Positions 1,161 through 6,759 of a stretch of DNA of 10,213 bases are shown here, one piece after another. Positions within the stretch are counted from its first letter, which is position 1, and every line of letters starts with the position of its first letter. The notes below the pieces were generated by a model. The model was not told the origin of the DNA and did not search any database. It worked only from the letters and a program-made list of their open reading frames with translations. The position numbers and the translations under genes are program-made. The DNA comes from Opitutia bacterium (GTDB lineage Bacteria > Verrucomicrobiota > Verrucomicrobiia > Opitutales > Opitutaceae): the NCBI GenBank assembly GCA_003157575.1, contig PMKA01000459.1, positions 1,508 to 11,720 of the forward strand. Reading direction: 5' to 3'.

Positions 1161-2831
1161 CTACTCGCTGCTCACCGCCCGCTCCTTGATGGCCAGCAGA
1201 TCCTTCATCACACGGGAGAGATCCGCCGACTTGTTGAGGCCGCCAAAAGAGTCGTGAAGCTGCCGGTACACGACGTAGAGCTGGTTGTAGGTTTCTTGCG
1301 CAGCCGCGCCGGGCTTGTATTGCTTCGATTTGATCGAGGACATCGCCTTCTGCGCGCTCGCGAAATCCTTGTGGGCTCCGGCCAGCACCGCCGCCGAAAC
1401 CGCCGAACCGAGCGCACACGCCTGGCTGGAACCCGCGACGAGCATCGTGCAGCCCGTGACGTCTGCATAGATCTGCATCAGCAGCGGGTTTTTCTCCGCG
1501 ATGCCGCCGGCGCAGACCACCCGGTCGATCGACACGCCGTATTCCCTGATCCGTTCGATGATCGCGCGTGCGCCGAACGCCGTCGCCTCGATCAGGGCGC
1601 GGTAGATCTCGGCCCGCGTTGTGTGAAGCGTCTGGCCAAGGACCAGCCCCGAAAGCGTCTGGTCGACCAGGATCGTGCGGTTGCCGTTGTTCCAGTCGAG
1701 CGCCACCAGGCCGCTTTGCCCGGGTTTCAGCTGCGCGGCCTCCCGGGACAGCCGGGAATGGAGCGCGCCGTCGCCCTCGCACACAACCTCAATCCACCAT
1801 TTGAAAATGTCCCCCACAGCAGACTGGCCCGCCTCGATCCCGTAGTACCCGGGGAGGATCGCGCCCTTTACGATGCCGCAGATCCCGGGAATGTCGGGCA
1901 CGTGTTTTGCCGCGGAAACCACACCGCAGTCGCAGGTGGACGTGCCGATGACCTTGACGAGCGTGCCCTCGGTGACGCCGCAGCCGATCGCGCCGTAATG
2001 CACGTCGAACTCGCCGATCGCGATCGGAATGCCGGCCGTCAGCCCGAGCCTGGCCGCCCACTCCGGGGAGAGCCGGCCGGCCGGCTCGGTGGCGTCATAA
2101 GCCTTCTCGTACAGGCGGTCGCGAAGCGCGGCCAGCTTAGGGTCGAGCAGCGCGAGAAACTCCTTGTCGGGCAGCCCGCCCCATTCCTCGCAAAAAAGCG
2201 CCTTGTGACCCGCCGCGCAGATGCCGCGCTTGACCCTGGTCGGATCGGTCACGCCCGCCAGCACCGACGGCACCCAGTCGGCGAGTTCGACCCACGACCA
2301 GGCCGCGTCGAACACCTCCGGGGCAACGGCCAGGCAGTGCCAGATCTTCGACCACCACCACTCCGACGAATACGTGTTGCCGCACTTTGCGATGAACTGC
2401 GGCCGGTGTTTCGCAGCGAGCTCCGTGATGCGCCCCGCCTCGCGCCATCCGGTGTGATCCTTCCAGAGCCAGCATTGCGCGGCGAGGTTCTTCCGCCACT
2501 TCTTGTCGAGCGCGAGCGGCCGGTTGTTGCGGTCGACCGGAATCGGGCTCGATCCGGTGGTGTCGACGCCGAGACCGATGACCTTCGCGGCGTCAAAGCC
2601 ACGGTGTTTCTTCGCCGCCGCCAGCGCGCCCTTCACGCTCCGTTCAAGGCCATAAAGGTAGTCGCCCGGGTGCTGCCGCGCGAGATGATGGTCCTTCGGG
2701 TCGAGCAGGATGCCCTGTTTGCCGCCCGGATAGTCGACGACGCAGGCGCCAAGTTCCGCGCCGTCCTCGCAGCGCACGACCAGCGCGCGAACCGAATTGG
2801 TGCCGTAATCAATGCCGAGGGCGAATGACAT
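1161..2831 (-). CDS. araB: Ribulokinase (FGGY-family sugar kinase)
   Basis: The gene encodes 556 residues (E. coli AraB has 566). The product phosphorylates L-ribulose to L-ribulose 5-phosphate with ATP in the cytoplasm. The start ATG at 2831-2829 gives [19 protein letters not shown], the N-terminal phosphate-binding strand of FGGY kinases. The reading frame stays open further upstream, but that extension has no family match. Further landmarks are [13 protein letters not shown] (about 88-100), WLWKDHT (121-127), [10 protein letters not shown] (154-163), [12 protein letters not shown] (202-213), the catalytic-base segment GEFDVHYGA with Asp276, [13 protein letters not shown] (292-304), and the C-terminal ATAFGARAI and [11 protein letters not shown]. 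All match ribulokinase rather than xylulokinase or glycerol kinase. It is the first gene of a leftward araBA unit, divergent from the regulator. A GC-rich inverted repeat, GCCGGC at 2858-2863 and 2872-2877, would lie in its leader. GGAG lies 13 nt before the ATG, which is rather far for a ribosome-binding site. Confidence 0.97.
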
Positions 2832-2889
2832 TGTTGGGAGAAAGCTCCAACACGGTAGCCGGCGGACACCGGCCGGCGATTGCACTTTT

Positions 2890-2904
2890 ACTTGACCGTC
2901 AAGT
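2890..2904. promoter_or_regulatory. 15-bp palindromic operator for the LacI-type regulator
   Basis: ACTTGACCGTCAAGT is a perfect inverted repeat: 7-bp half-sites ACTTGAC/GTCAAGT around one central base. It lies in the 94-bp gap between divergent araB and the regulator gene, a position typical of autoregulated LacI-family operators. Its TTGACC also serves as the likely -35 of the regulator, so binding would block that promoter. A near-copy (13 of 15 matches) overlaps the araD start at 6745-6759. That the palindrome is present is certain; that this regulator binds it is inference. Confidence 0.8.
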
Positions 2905-2919
2905 GAACCGCCCCACCCT
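2892..2919 (+). promoter_or_regulatory. Possible regulator promoter (leaderless geometry)
   Basis: TTGACC (2892-2897), a 16-bp spacer and a poor -10 CACCCT (2914-2919) precede the ATG by 6 nt. There is no Shine-Dalgarno sequence before the ATG. The same spacing (TTGAC, 16 bp, -10, start codon 7-8 nt later) recurs at 4137 and 5077. The -10 is weak, so this is tentative. Confidence 0.35.
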
Positions 2920-2925
2920 GCCCGC

Positions 2926-3969
2926 ATGGCCCGCATGACGATGGCGATGCTGGCGCGCGAACTGGGGGTTTCGAAGAACACCGTCTCGCTCGCCCTGAGG
3001 CACGATCCGCAGATTCCCGCCGCGACGCGCGAGCGCGTGCAGGCCGCCGCGCGCCGCTGCGGGTACACGCCGGACCCGGTCATTTCGCACCTGATGGCGG
3101 CGCTTCGCGTGTCGCGCACCGCGCGGACCGTGCACACGATCGCCCTCCTCAACGCGAACCGCGATCGCGACGCCTTTCGATCCCATCCGACGATCCCGGT
3201 GTACGTCGCGGGATGTCAGCGGCGCGCGAATTCGCAGGGTTACGCCACGGACACGTTCTGGCTCCACGACCCCGGACTCGACGGCCCCCGTCTCAACCGG
3301 ATCCTCGCCGCACGGGGCATCCGCGGGGTGATCGTGGCCGGCATGATGGAAGAGAACCGCCTGCCGGCGCGCTTCGCGGCCACATGGGCGCGCCACGCCT
3401 GCGTCGTCACCGGCGTTCGCACCCATGAACCGACGCTGTCGTTCTGCTGCGTCGACCATCACGCCCTGGTGCTGCAGGCGGTCGAACACGCCGTTGCGCT
3501 CGGCTACCGCCGGCCCGGACTCGTGATCGACCAAAGGATCGACCGCCTCGTCGAAGGACGCTTCTCGTCAGGCATGTTGATCGGCCAGCAGGAACTTCCC
3601 CCGGGCGACCGCGTGCCGCCCTTCTACGACGTGGCCGAGGCGCGCGACGATCCCGGACGCTTCCTGGCCTGGTGTGACCGCGAGCGGCCCGATGTGATCT
3701 TCACCCTTTATAATGTGGTGCGCCGCTGGCTCGAAGCGCACGGGCGCCGCGTCCCGCATGACATCGGTCTCATCCAGCTCGAACGCCGCAGCGGGGATTC
3801 CGACTGGGCCAGCATGGACCAGCACAACGACCGGGTCGGCGAGGCGGCCGTCGACATGCTCATCTCGCTCCTCCAGAGCAACGAGCTCGGCGTTCCCGCC
3901 TATGCCCGCGCCACGTTGATCGGGGCGAGCTGGGTGCCGGGGCGCACCGTGCGGCAGCGGACCGCATAA
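2926..3969 (+). CDS. LacI/GalR-family transcriptional regulator, probable arabinose repressor
   Basis: This is a 347-residue DNA-binding regulator. Residues 4-56 form the LacI-type helix-turn-helix: MTMAMLARELGVSKNTVSLA, then RHDPQIPAATRERV and AARRCGY. The hinge helix reads YTPDPVISHLMAALR instead of the usual proline-asparagine pattern of E. coli LacI. The rest is a periplasmic-binding-protein-like sugar-sensing domain, with VHTIALL opening the first lobe, GIRGVIVAGM in the middle, and a C-terminal DIGLIQLERR...DWASMDQHNDRVGEAAVDML that matches the dimerisation/effector region. It is divergent from araB across a palindromic operator, so it most likely represses the ara genes and responds to arabinose or a pathway sugar. 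Which ligand it senses cannot be read from the sequence. The ATG at 2926 places the recognition helix at the normal distance from the N-terminus; no ribosome-binding site is visible. Confidence 0.9.
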   Translation: MARMTMAMLARELGVSKNTVSLALRHDPQIPAATRERVQAAARRCGYTPDPVISHLMAALRVSRTARTVHTIALLNANRDRDAFRSHPTIPVYVAGCQRRANSQGYATDTFWLHDPGLDGPRLNRILAARGIRGVIVAGMMEENRLPARFAATWARHACVVTGVRTHEPTLSFCCVDHHALVLQAVEHAVALGYRRPGLVIDQRIDRLVEGRFSSGMLIGQQELPPGDRVPPFYDVAEARDDPGRFLAWCDRERPDVIFTLYNVVRRWLEAHGRRVPHDIGLIQLERRSGDSDWASMDQHNDRVGEAAVDMLISLLQSNELGVPAYARATLIGASWVPGRTVRQRTA

Positions 3970-3998
3970 GATGAAGACGCCGGCCGAAGACGTCATGT

Positions 3999-4141
3999 CT
4001 TGACTCTTGACTGGCGACGATCCGGAGGCAGCGGGTCCTATGCGGTTGGGCTTTAATTGCCGTTGAGACGTAATCCCTTGACGCGCCAGCCGGCGGTCGG
4101 GCCTCGTCGTAGGCGTTGCGCCGAGAAAGAACCCGCTTGAC
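3999..4141 (+). repeat. Four CTTGAC hexamers downstream of the regulator, two in tandem
   Basis: The 201-bp gap between the regulator and the antitoxin contains CTTGAC at 3999-4004, 4006-4011, 4077-4082 and 4136-4141, all in the same orientation. The first two form a perfect tandem CTTGACT repeat. The hexamer equals most of the half-site of the 2890-2904 operator, but no facing half-site is present. A small hairpin, AAGAC/GTCTT (3987-3991 and 3997-4001), sits just after the regulator stop. It lacks a T-tract and is at best a weak terminator. Confidence 0.4.
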
Positions 4142-4164
4142 AGCCGTACGCTTAACCGTACGCT
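4137..4164 (+). promoter_or_regulatory. Promoter of the toxin-antitoxin operon
   Basis: A consensus -35 TTGACA (4137-4142) is followed after 16 bp by TACGCT (4159-4164), which keeps the first, second and last bases of a -10 hexamer. The expected transcription start falls at or next to the ATG at 4171. There is no Shine-Dalgarno sequence, so the mRNA is probably leaderless. The operator repeats lie in the spacer and over the -10. Confidence 0.55.
4144..4164. promoter_or_regulatory. YefM-type operator: two CGTACG palindromes 12 bp apart
   Basis: CCGTACGCT occurs at 4144-4152 and again at 4156-4164, giving palindromic CGTACG cores at 4145-4150 and 4157-4162 with a centre-to-centre distance of 12 bp. 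The E. coli yefM-yoeB operator is known to use two TGTACA cores with this spacing. The repeats overlap the predicted promoter immediately upstream of yefM, as expected for autorepression by the antitoxin-toxin complex. Confidence 0.7.
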
Positions 4165-4170
4165 CTTGGC

Positions 4171-4413
4171 ATGACATCCATTCCCGTCACCCAAGCTCGT
4201 TCCAGGCTCTATCAGCTTGTCGACGACACCGCCGCTTCCCACGTCCCCGTCCAGATTACCGGCAAGCGCAACAATGCGGTTTTGGTGGCCGAGGACGATT
4301 GGCGGAGCATTCAGGAGACGCTCTACCTTCTGTCGATACCTGGAATGCGCGAATCCATTCGGAAGGGATTGCGGGAGCCGTTGGGGAGAGCCGAGACTGA
4401 AATCGCCTGGTGA
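4171..4413 (+). CDS. yefM: Antitoxin of the Phd/YefM family
   Basis: This is an 80-residue antitoxin, close to the usual 75-90. The N-terminal half has the YefM DNA-binding fold: ITVTQAR-like start (SIPVTQARSRLYQLVDD), then VPVQITGKRNNAVLVAEDDW, matching the strand-turn-strand and the conserved V/L-V-A/S-x-x-D/E-W/Y motif. SIQETLYLLSIPGM corresponds to the conserved LEETAYLL segment. The C-terminal tail would wrap the toxin. The stop overlaps the toxin start by 4 bp (GTGA), the usual antitoxin-first coupling. It probably represses its own promoter through the CGTACG repeats just upstream. The ATG at 4171 is chosen because it directly precedes the conserved start; there is no ribosome-binding site, fitting a leaderless mRNA. 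Confidence 0.9.
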   Translation: MTSIPVTQARSRLYQLVDDTAASHVPVQITGKRNNAVLVAEDDWRSIQETLYLLSIPGMRESIRKGLREPLGRAETEIAW

Positions 4414-4673
4414 CTTGGCGGCTCTATTATACCAAGCAAGCCCTGAAGGACGCCAAGAAGCTGGCGTCCAGCAATCTTCGGCCCCAAGCAGAACGCCTGC
4501 TTGAGATTTTGAAGAAGGATCCGTTTCAAAGCCCGCCAGGATTTGAGAAGTTGGTCGGAGATCTCGATGGTGCATGGTCCCGGCGGATTAACATCCAGCA
4601 CCGACTTGTGTATCAGATCTACCCGGAGAAACGGGCGGTGAAAATCATTCGGATGTGGACCCATTACGAATGA
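4410..4673 (+). CDS. yoeB: YoeB-type toxin (ribosome-dependent mRNA interferase)
   Basis: The gene encodes 87 residues and starts with GTG inside the antitoxin stop (GTGA overlap). YoeB toxins cut mRNA at the ribosomal A site; YefM neutralises them. The protein has the RelE/YoeB fold: WRLYYTKQALKDAKKL, then PFQSPPGFEKLVGDLDGAWSRRINIQHRLVY, and a C-terminal RMWTHYE. E46, R65 and the terminal His85-Tyr86 match the active-site residues E46, R65, H83 and Y84 of E. coli YoeB, so the toxin looks catalytically intact. It has one extra residue after the His-Tyr. The motif WSRRI followed by HRLVY is the hallmark distinguishing YoeB from RelE. With the intact antitoxin this is probably a working module. 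It lies in a block that separates araD from the rest of the ara genes. Confidence 0.93.
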   Translation: MTWRLYYTKQALKDAKKLASSNLRPQAERLLEILKKDPFQSPPGFEKLVGDLDGAWSRRINIQHRLVYQIYPEKRAVKIIRMWTHYE

Positions 4674-5076
4674 AGGAGCCGAGTCGGGCATGAGGTCGCG
4701 CTTGTCGCCGACGATCACAGCAGCTACGGCGGCAAAGAACCCGCGGCCTTCCAAAAGACGGCCGGGATAAACGCCTGTTTCGAAGAAAGCCGATCCAAAG
4801 GGGCCGTGGTTTGTGGTCTTTTTGGCTTGGCGGCGGGCGCGGGGGCGGCATGCCGCTCCCGGCCGGACACCTTGCGGCTTGCCTCGTGGCGGCTGCCCGT
4901 CTACAGCATGGCCGCCCATGGCGGTGGTTATGCCCCGCACCACGTGAGTGCGGCCACTCGCTCACGCTCGCGGCTACCCTCGTGGCGAAACGGTCCGCGA
5001 CTCCTGATTTCCACGTTCCTCTCCCGACCAATAGGTTCGTCCCCAGTGTCGGCTGTCGGTTCATCCGAGGTTGCTG
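4674..5076. other. About 400 bp without a convincing gene
   Basis: No open frame on either strand here has a recognisable product. The frames that stay open are rich in Arg, Ser, Pro and Ala and look like shadows of GC-rich DNA. Around 4820-4990 the sequence is full of short palindromes and partial repeats: CCGCC/GGCGG around CAT at 4912-4924, GGCATGCC near 4850, and the word CCTCGTGGCG at both 4882-4891 and 4978-4987. This could be a decayed element or a non-coding repeat. No transposase, terminal inverted repeat pair or tRNA was found. Confidence 0.5.
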
Positions 5077-5104
5077 TTGACCGAAACAGCCTCCGCTGTA
5101 GATT
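5077..5104 (+). promoter_or_regulatory. Promoter of the small ORF/nucleotidyltransferase pair
   Basis: TTGACC (5077-5082), a 16-bp spacer and TAGATT (5099-5104) form a good sigma-70-type promoter, with TG just before the -10 region. The GTG at 5112 lies 7 nt after the -10, where transcription should begin. This supports a leaderless mRNA starting with that codon. Confidence 0.6.
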
Positions 5105-5111
5105 GCAGCGG

Positions 5112-5324
5112 GTGAAGCGGATCTTCAATCGAGCTATTCGCGCAATTACCCGGTCGGAGTTTTCGGCCCGGGTGGATGCTATTCATGTCGCATCGCGCGC
5201 AACCATGGCCCGCATGTCTGCGGAGGGCAAGGGCTGGGAGGGGCTCAAGGGAAACGTCTCGCTGCTCGGGTTGAGAATGGATTCCGGTTCCCGGGCCAAA
5301 AGGGTCTTCGGCGGCCGCCGCTGA
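5112..5324 (+). CDS. Small basic protein of unknown function (70 aa)
   Basis: I do not recognise this protein. The GTG at 5112 is chosen because it sits 7 nt after a good promoter; the frame stays open further upstream but only into non-coding-looking sequence. The product begins VKRIFNRAIRAITRSEFSAR, contains an Ala/Met-rich helix (HVASRATMARMSAEGKGWEG) and ends SGSRAKRVFGGRR. It is strongly basic, with no Cys pair, signal peptide or membrane segment. Its TGA stop overlaps the ATG of the next gene (TGATG), so the two are almost certainly co-translated. A small basic protein coupled in front of a nucleotidyltransferase-fold protein recalls toxin-antitoxin or defence pairs, but no family match supports an antitoxin role. 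It may also be a leader ORF for the next gene. Confidence 0.5.
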   Translation: MKRIFNRAIRAITRSEFSARVDAIHVASRATMARMSAEGKGWEGLKGNVSLLGLRMDSGSRAKRVFGGRR

Positions 5325-5869
5325 TGGCGGATAGACTTACACGGCCTCACGACGACCGGGCATTGTTTTCCGCATGTCCTGACTTGACGATTGTTGGCGG
5401 GCAGGCCGTCAATCTTCGGGCCATCACCTACCTTGATGAGGCGCGGGCCGACTCTGAACGATTTGGTTCGCTGGATCTCGATGTGTTGGCGCGAATGCGG
5501 GCCAGCGACATCATTGCTGCCCTGCCAGAGTGGAATCACGAAAAGACACCTCTTTGGGCCTTTGGGGACGGACGCGTGCTGACGTTGACGTCAAATTCCG
5601 ACGATGGGCGGCCTCTTGTAGTCGAGGTGCTGCATTCCGTTCCCGGGCTTGATCAAGAAGACCTTGATTCTGTCGTGGAGATTCAGAAGGACGAAGCGAC
5701 GTACCGCTTGCTGGATCCGGTGGCGATGTTGAAAGCTAAAGTCACCAGCATCCGCCTCTTTGACCAGACGGACCGCCAAGATAGGCCTCATTTGCAGATC
5801 ATTGCCAAATGTCTGCCGCTTTTTCCGAGAGAGACGCTCATCAACAGGCACTCGAAGACGCTCCTCTAG
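5324..5869 (+). CDS. Nucleotidyltransferase-fold protein (AbiEii-like), truncated by frame break
   Basis: The gene encodes 181 residues. The N-terminal LTIVGGQAVNLRAITYL (21-37) carries the double glycine of nucleotidyltransferase-like proteins, and FGSLDLDVLA (47-56) has the D-x-D pair (Asp51, Asp53) expected to bind metal and nucleotide. A later YRLLDPVAMLKAKVTSIRLF and RQDRPHLQIIAKCLPLF resemble the helical part of AbiEii/AbiGii-type proteins, where a Lys and an Asp-Arg-x-H-like segment are conserved. Members of that group act as toxins or modifiers of tRNA, but the substrate here is unknown. The stop at 5867 comes early. The expected C-terminal helical continuation is found in the -1 frame (5809-6051), so the gene is either broken by a one-base change near the T-run at 5820-5824 or read through by frameshifting. 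Its start overlaps the stop of the small upstream gene. Confidence 0.65.
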   Translation: MADRLTRPHDDRALFSACPDLTIVGGQAVNLRAITYLDEARADSERFGSLDLDVLARMRASDIIAALPEWNHEKTPLWAFGDGRVLTLTSNSDDGRPLVVEVLHSVPGLDQEDLDSVVEIQKDEATYRLLDPVAMLKAKVTSIRLFDQTDRQDRPHLQIIAKCLPLFPRETLINRHSKTLL

Positions 5870-6051
5870 AAGCAGCGTTCTGCGGGACGTTACACAGAGC
5901 ATTCAAGGCACTAACGGACAGACGGATCAGGAAGATCCTGCGCCAGGAAGGCATCGACATCCTCTTGCTGATTCCTCCTGAGTTGAGCCAGTCCCCGATA
6001 GAACAAGTCAGGACAGCATGTCTGCATCAACTGTCGCGACTCGCGGGCTAG
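5809..6051 (+). pseudogene. Out-of-frame C-terminal part of the nucleotidyltransferase-like protein
   Basis: This frame, -1 relative to the preceding gene, stays open to a TAG at 6049-6051. It encodes a helical continuation including AFKALTDRRIRKILRQEGID and ILLLIPPELSQSPIEQVR. If the frames are joined at the T-run 5820-5824, the result is a single protein of about 242 residues reading CLPLF then SERDAHQQALED. The C-terminal pattern (a basic helix, then an Ile/Leu-rich segment followed by Pro) fits the tail of nucleotidyltransferase-like proteins. As a separate gene it would begin at an ATG inside the upstream gene, with no ribosome-binding site. A sequencing error, a true inactivating mutation or programmed slippage are all possible; the site is not a canonical slippery heptamer. 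It ends 4 bp from the convergent araD stop. Confidence 0.55.
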
Positions 6052-6055
6052 GGCC

Positions 6056-6748
6056 TCAGCGCTGGCCGTAGGTCGCCCCGGGCCCGTGCTTGCGCTTGAA
6101 ATGCCGGCGGAGCAATTCCGGCTCGATCGGTTCGCGCCCGGGCGCGAGCGCGAGCGTCTGAAACGCCATCTGGGCGACAATCTCCAGCGCCGCCGCCGTC
6201 TCCACGGCCTTCGCGCCGGTCGGCCCCCACGCAAACGGTCCATGCCTCCACACCAGCACCGCCGGAACGTCGAGCGGATCGCGGTCGCGAAACGTCTCCA
6301 CAATCACGTTGCCGGTGTTCCACTCGTATGCATCGGCGATCTCCTCAGCCGTCATCGGCCGCGTGACCGGCACCGCTCCGTTGAAATAGTCCGCATGCGT
6401 CGTCCCGAAACACTGCACGGGCCGCCCGGCCTGCGCGAAACTCACCGCGTGGCGCGAATGGGTGTGCACCACCGCGCGGATTCCCGCGAATGCCTGGAAC
6501 AGCCGCCGGTGCGTCGGAGTGTCGGACGACGGCCGCAGACTGCCTTCCACCACGCGACCCTCCATGTCGACCAGCACCATCGTCTCCGGCGTCAGTTCGC
6601 CATAGGGCACACCGCTCGGCTTGATCGCAAAAACGCCGGCCCCGGGGTCGGCCACGCTGACATTTCCAAACGTGAGATCGACCAGACCCGACGCGCCCAG
6701 CCGGCGGTTGGCCTCGTATGCTTCGTCGCGGAGTGTTCGATGCAACAT
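6056..6748 (-). CDS. araD: L-ribulose-5-phosphate 4-epimerase
   Basis: The gene encodes 230 residues (E. coli AraD has 231). This cytoplasmic class II aldolase-family zinc enzyme converts L-ribulose 5-phosphate to D-xylulose 5-phosphate, the last step before the pentose phosphate pathway. The ATG at 6748-6746 gives MLHRTLRDEAYEANRRL, aligned with the E. coli N-terminus. FGNVSV, IKPSGV and SSDTPTH are present. Metal ligands Asp76, His95 and His97 (in HTHSRHA) and His169 (WRHGPFAWG) are intact, as are Asp120 (THADYF) and Tyr227 near the C-terminus (ATYGQR), matching the catalytic residues of the E. coli enzyme. It stands alone, separated from araBA by about 4 kb containing the regulator and a toxin-antitoxin block. 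An operator-like palindrome covers its start codon. The reading frame stays open upstream of this ATG, but that extension has no family match. Confidence 0.97.
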   Translation of the reverse strand: MLHRTLRDEAYEANRRLGASGLVDLTFGNVSVADPGAGVFAIKPSGVPYGELTPETMVLVDMEGRVVEGSLRPSSDTPTHRRLFQAFAGIRAVVHTHSRHAVSFAQAGRPVQCFGTTHADYFNGAVPVTRPMTAEEIADAYEWNTGNVIVETFRDRDPLDVPAVLVWRHGPFAWGPTGAKAVETAAALEIVAQMAFQTLALAPGREPIEPELLRRHFKRKHGPGATYGQR

Positions 6749-6759
6749 GACGGTCAAGA
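6745..6759. promoter_or_regulatory. Second regulator operator, overlapping the araD start
   Basis: ACATGACGGTCAAGA matches the reverse complement of the 2890-2904 palindrome at 13 of 15 positions, keeping a perfect TGAC-G-GTCA core. It covers the araD ATG and overlaps a -10-like TATCTT (minus strand, 6762-6757) that lies 8 nt before the ATG. Binding here would block araD initiation. No good -35 is visible, and no Shine-Dalgarno sequence, so araD may also be leaderless. Confidence 0.65.

Follow-up and report, generated by a model that had tools for sequence, protein, structure and literature searches.

A LacI-type protein, an odd-length operator and the arabinose genes of an Opitutia bacterium

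In a stretch of 10,213 nucleotides from an Opitutia bacterium (contig PMKA01000459.1; the whole stretch is referred to below as the window), genes for L-arabinose use lie beside a gene for a LacI-type protein, which raises the question of whether this protein controls them and through which DNA sites. An earlier note, made from the sequence alone, had pointed to a palindrome between the regulator gene and araB, predicted from it the binding motif of the regulator, and linked the distant araD to araBA through a second copy. The reading favoured here, with a probability of about 0.85, is that the LacI-type protein is a local arabinose regulator with an odd-length operator, that araBA and the regulator gene itself are repressed from this operator, and that araD is co-repressed through the second site. 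According to this model, the odd palindrome ACTTGAC-N-GTCAAGT located between araB and the regulator gene would be occupied by a regulator dimer, with repression of araBA and of the regulator gene as the most likely effect; the dimer would come off in the presence of L-arabinose or one of its close derivatives. A dimeric repressor acting between the divergent araBA and its own gene fits both the protein family and the positions of the sites.

The regulator gene (2926-3969, + strand, 347 residues) is transcribed divergently from araB (1161-2831, - strand), a ribulokinase of the FGGY type by Pfam and NCBIfam that passes the cut-off of one NCBIfam model and falls under that of another. The L-arabinose isomerase gene araA (2-1000, - strand), recognised by its AraA domains in Pfam, extends beyond the window edge, while araD (6056-6748, - strand), encoding L-ribulose-5-phosphate 4-epimerase, was assigned by the Pfam class II aldolase domain and by NCBIfam, where it lies over one subfamily cut-off and under the equivalog cut-off. 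The predicted main operator, the perfect palindrome ACTTGAC-C-GTCAAGT, was found exactly where it had been placed, with ACTTGACCGTCAAGT occupying positions 2890-2904 (+) inside the 94-bp gap between the starts of araB (2831, -) and the LacI-type gene (2926, +). The predicted second operator, ACATGACGGTCAAGA at 6745-6759, is the 13-of-15 copy that had been described: compared with ACTTGACGGTCAAGT, which is the first site read on its opposite strand, it has 2 changes in 15 positions, and it contains the araD ATG (- strand), at + positions 6746-6748. Both sites are confirmed as positioned.

Within the window the pair is rare, as at least two matches within three mismatches were obtained in one of 200 dinucleotide shuffles (mean 0.13). 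Across the draft genome (3.99 Mb in 546 contigs, ~74% complete), the pattern occurs once without mismatch, nowhere with a single mismatch and six times with two; the araD site is among these six, and the other five, outside the window, all lie in open reading frames (ORFs), at distances of 392-1486 nt from their starts. In the scan of the genome and its relatives suggested in the earlier note, no genome-wide excess was seen at up to three mismatches (74 matches against 143 for a reversed control pattern), so that only close matches are informative; the motif does recur upstream of regulator relatives and of araB. At one mismatch across the taxonomic family, the reversed control also matches more often than the motif. 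The evidence therefore lies in the position of the sites and not in their number. The nearby symporter (SSF domain by Pfam), proposed as a further target, did not prove to be one at this level, since its gene carries no site and the 16.4-kb contig holds no further match within three mismatches.

A search of 150 genomes of the family recovered 56 copies of the regulator in 53 genomes (46-100% identity, the next row being at 40%), with alignments covering most of the protein and one copy partial. Regions from -200 to +5 were scanned with the unchanged pattern for 55 copies, a count that omits L104, with insufficient upstream sequence, and L128, whose gene is partial, and includes one row of 39-40% identity (L129, 39%, with one internal stop). 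The motif is present within three mismatches upstream of 38 of the 55 relatives (2 exact, 10 with one, 16 with two and 10 with three mismatches; 37/54 without L129), while shuffles gave an expectation of 0.19 and the reversed control none. The 38 sites start 18-118 nt before the regulator start codon. A phylum-wide search identified an ortholog in 30 of 387 genomes; 13 of these lie outside the family, and 9 of the 13 have an upstream match within three mismatches (control 0). Beside these 13 orthologs araB is divergent in 10 cases and on the same strand in one, and araD-araA is divergent in two. The proposal that the binding motif of the adjacent LacI-type protein can be read from the palindrome is thus borne out by the recurrence of the palindrome before relatives inside and outside the family and before araB in regulator-bearing genomes. 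The result is an operator motif, open to testing, for a LacI-type regulator of arabinose genes that occurs in several families of Verrucomicrobiota.

The dyad form of the site is itself conserved. The gap-1 dyad CTTGAC-N-GTCAAG was found in 22 of 29 upstream regions (shuffles 5-6), and some near-palindromic sequences that miss the pattern keep an odd dyad in which both halves are altered. These include CCTTAACCGTTAAGA or a near form in four genomes of one genus, where the helix reads SKAT instead of SKNT, ACATTACAGTAATGT upstream in L087, ACTTTACAGTAAAGT upstream in L332 and GTATGACAGTCATAT in two genomes (L328, L329), with six of seven base pairs matched. In several relatives (L083-L091 and others), the operator is itself preceded by another conserved element, TGGTAAAC or CTCGTAAAC.

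The araB start is divergent and within 600 nt of the regulator in 28 of 55 cases. Where araB is on the locus and placed otherwise, a site within three mismatches occurs up to ~250 nt before araB at six of nine loci (present in L076, L077, L092, L094, L115 and L121; absent from L082, L084 and L097), and in genome G005 an exact site precedes araB with the regulator 18 kb distant. Of the araB loci read, 15 came from genomes with the regulator and 15 from genomes lacking it; an upstream site was detected at 9 of the former and at none of the latter. Twenty-nine one-mismatch sites were counted in 23 regulator-bearing genomes of the family; 16 of them precede the regulator, araB, an arabinofuranosidase (G102, PF09206; G072, PF06964) or a sugar ABC operon (G074, G109). 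In 18 genomes without the regulator, 20 of the 22 one-mismatch sites are in ORFs, one is at an ORF end and one precedes the 40% homolog. On this comparative evidence, a predicted ara regulon of the LacI-type regulator is well supported. Two genomes (L115, L121) each carry two regulator copies near araB genes, with differing upstream sites, and G005 returned ~188 first-look candidates for a LacI-type query, compared with ~10-40 in most family genomes.

Several observations weigh against this interpretation. No match within three mismatches was found in 17 of the 55 family regions and 4 of the 13 others, araB lacks an upstream site in six regulator-bearing genomes, and some matches come from near copies within a genus and so do not count as independent. 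Conservation is also weaker in the right half of the site than in the left. Moreover, no connection to ara genes is seen for 13 of the 29 one-mismatch sites, eight being in ORFs and five neither there nor before an ara-related gene; one of these five precedes another LacI-type gene and one a sulfate-permease gene.

The membership of araD in the regulon is less firmly supported than the rest. Six genomes of the genus were compared, and the regulator is present only in that of the window; neither the regulator nor the araD site occurs in any of the five relatives. In G016, G060, G086 and G125, araD and araB share a strand, with the araD end ~50-85 nt ahead of araB, and in G108 araD was found with no araB at threshold. 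In the window the two genes are 3.2 kb apart, separated by a segment (2832-6055) that holds the operator, the regulator, a YefM/YoeB-type pair and an ORF of unknown function, and that corresponds to a short gap in the relatives. Nucleotide similarity to G016 ends at 2831 (the araB ATG) and resumes at 6059 (the araD end). The same 15 bases at the araD start have 6-9 mismatches to the motif in the five relatives against 2 in the window, and the four of 15 bases that differ between the window and G016 all differ toward the motif. On a plain reading of these alignments, regulator, operator and passenger genes would have been placed between araD and araB, adjacent in the relatives, and the araD site would then have been gained, rather than lost in the relatives. 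Severed from araBA, araD would thus carry a weaker operator copy over its start codon and probably be repressed in step; because the site spans that codon, a protein bound there would block initiation or elongation. The shared site as a link between araD and araBA, put forward in the earlier note, is favoured by position, rarity and the genus comparison and limited by its resting on one species. It is also a single case in one draft genome, picked post hoc.

The possibility was also weighed that the araD match arose by chance, that araD is otherwise regulated or not regulated, and that the intergenic palindrome is the sole operator. The genome does contain five other two-mismatch matches, all coding; three bases of one half-site are constrained by its overlap with the start codon, and 29 other araD loci of the family lack such a site (best 4-7 mismatches). 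Against this, araD mostly lies behind araBA in other genomes, where a separate site for it is unnecessary. By simple arithmetic, the five background matches in 3.99 Mb correspond to ~1.5e-4 for 120 bp around one start, and random change at 30-40% per base produced an equally good match at a frequency of 6.6e-5 to 8.4e-5 per run when the G016 sequence was the starting point and of 1e-5 to 1.9e-5 when that of G060 was. A chance origin is accordingly considered unlikely, while keeping more weight than either of the two explanations that follow.

The conserved TTGAC might instead be a promoter -35 box. Its resemblance to TTGACA (TTGAC is followed by A or C in 35 of 38 sites) and the better conservation of the left half speak for this, yet no sigma-70-like promoter was found in 2750-3000, and 8 of the 38 sites begin 18-20 nt before the regulator start codon, too near to provide its -35. 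One-mismatch sites also track the presence of the regulator, and both halves co-vary in the TTAAC/GTTAA, TTTAC/GTAAA and TTAC/GTAA variants; such paired half-site changes are the behaviour of a dimer operator, unlike a -35 box. This explanation is considered highly improbable. Scarcely less improbable is that a different LacI-type regulator, of similar motif, uses the site and that the neighbouring gene acts elsewhere. Opitutaceae have many LacI paralogs, a different LacI-type gene in G127 is preceded by a one-mismatch site, and so is the 39-40% identity homolog of G101. The site nevertheless travels with this ortholog group, even where araB is elsewhere, and within one genus a change in helix residues goes along with changes in both half-sites. 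In G127 the site (L340 1501-1515) lies 73 nt before the other LacI-type gene, and the arabinose regulator of that genome has the SKAT helix.

The regulator comprises an N-terminal LacI-type helix-turn-helix (PF00356, 42.2 bits, cut-off 27) and a periplasmic-binding-protein-like sensor domain (Peripla_BP_3, PF13377, 33.8 bits, cut-off 26.5); no NCBIfam model reached its cut-off. As is usual for LacI/GalR proteins, a palindrome lies upstream of the regulator gene, although it is of the odd type, which is the less common one. The hinge leucine (LacI Leu56) is kept in 54 of 55 relatives and is invariant in the 29 aligned, whereas the alanine (LacI Ala53), usual but not obligatory, is absent and replaced by V in 33, L in 13, I in 4, M in 2, T in 2 and N in 1 (n = 55). 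The non-standard hinge, named in the earlier note as less familiar, is not peculiar to this protein: 9 of 13 LacI paralogs read in three genomes likewise lack the alanine, and hinges of this kind are common among Opitutaceae LacI paralogs.

The hinge as the cause of the odd operator was considered as well, and found no support in three paralog groups without hinge alanine, while not being firmly rejected. Group 1 (30 loci, L251-L280) has an even-spaced CTAA-NN-TTAG core, imperfect and not CG-centred, and GTCTAA-NN-TTAGAC occurs at two mismatches in 14 of the 30 (shuffles 4-5). Group 2 (9 loci) is ambiguous, with an even CTGAAC-NN-GTTCAG in 5/9 (shuffles 3) and an odd CGCAAT-N5-ATTGCG in 7/9 (shuffles 2-3), and no upstream element was found in group 3 (30 loci). 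The upstream element of L251-L280, around CTAAC-N-N-TAGACT, often lies 50-60 nt before the start.

The same pathway is controlled by other protein families elsewhere, namely by AraC in E. coli. AraR of Corynebacterium glutamicum, from another phylum, resembles the regulator proposed here in being, by the titles of work by Kawaguchi in 2009 and Kuge in 2014, a LacI-type arabinose-responsive repressor of arabinose genes. The AraR proteins of Bacillus (GntR-type) and Bacteroides (NrtR-type) act on this pathway too and belong to still other families. In bifidobacteria, the LacI-family AraQ is predicted at araBDA and described as a global regulator with no effector identified (PMC5928203, PMC6882875), while the regulon described here looks local. 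LacI-type control of arabinose genes, called less familiar in the earlier note, is already known from Corynebacterium and Bifidobacterium; no verrucomicrobial arabinose regulon was found in the open-licence PMC literature.

With respect to the operator, a survey of 1303 LacI-family factors lists 1251 even palindromes, mostly CG-centred, and 4% odd ones, and Verrucomicrobia are not mentioned in the accessible part of its text (PMC4052901). The closest parallel is the EbgR-like subfamily (LacR, GalR, RafR), in which a single central operator base, unlike the CG-centred majority, accompanies a hinge without alanine (PMC2329647). This contrasts with the present group in two respects: the hinge leucine is also absent from EbgR-like proteins (PMC2329647) and kept here, and their central base is C or G and here mostly A or C. 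The odd operator and the kept leucine form a pairing open to a simple binding test. A tentative extension, given slightly less than an even chance, is that these proteins form a Verrucomicrobiota-wide class of arabinose repressors that recognise an odd C-N-G operator and yet keep the leucine otherwise associated with even, CG-centred operators, and that in this species an araDBA operon was entered by the regulator and the severed araD then acquired its operator by a few point changes. The operator pair is real, its centre is unusual and the history of araD is instructive. In the genus comparison, both the entry of a regulator into an operon and the emergence of a further operator can be followed base by base.

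The remainder of the 3.2-kb segment contains genes for a PhdYefM antitoxin and a Txe/YoeB toxin (4171-4673, + strand), which give no sign of membership in the ara regulon, and the 181-residue ORF (5324-5869, + strand), without a match in Pfam, PADLOC or NCBIfam. The labels AbiEii and nucleotidyltransferase for this ORF are presumptive and were backed by none of these searches. The region of the toxin-antitoxin pair and the ORF has a G+C content of ~0.56, compared with 0.65-0.67 in the flanks. Between araB and araA, ~65 bp (1038-1103) form an inverted repeat, both strands of which match one place in G016 (L190 6870-6937).

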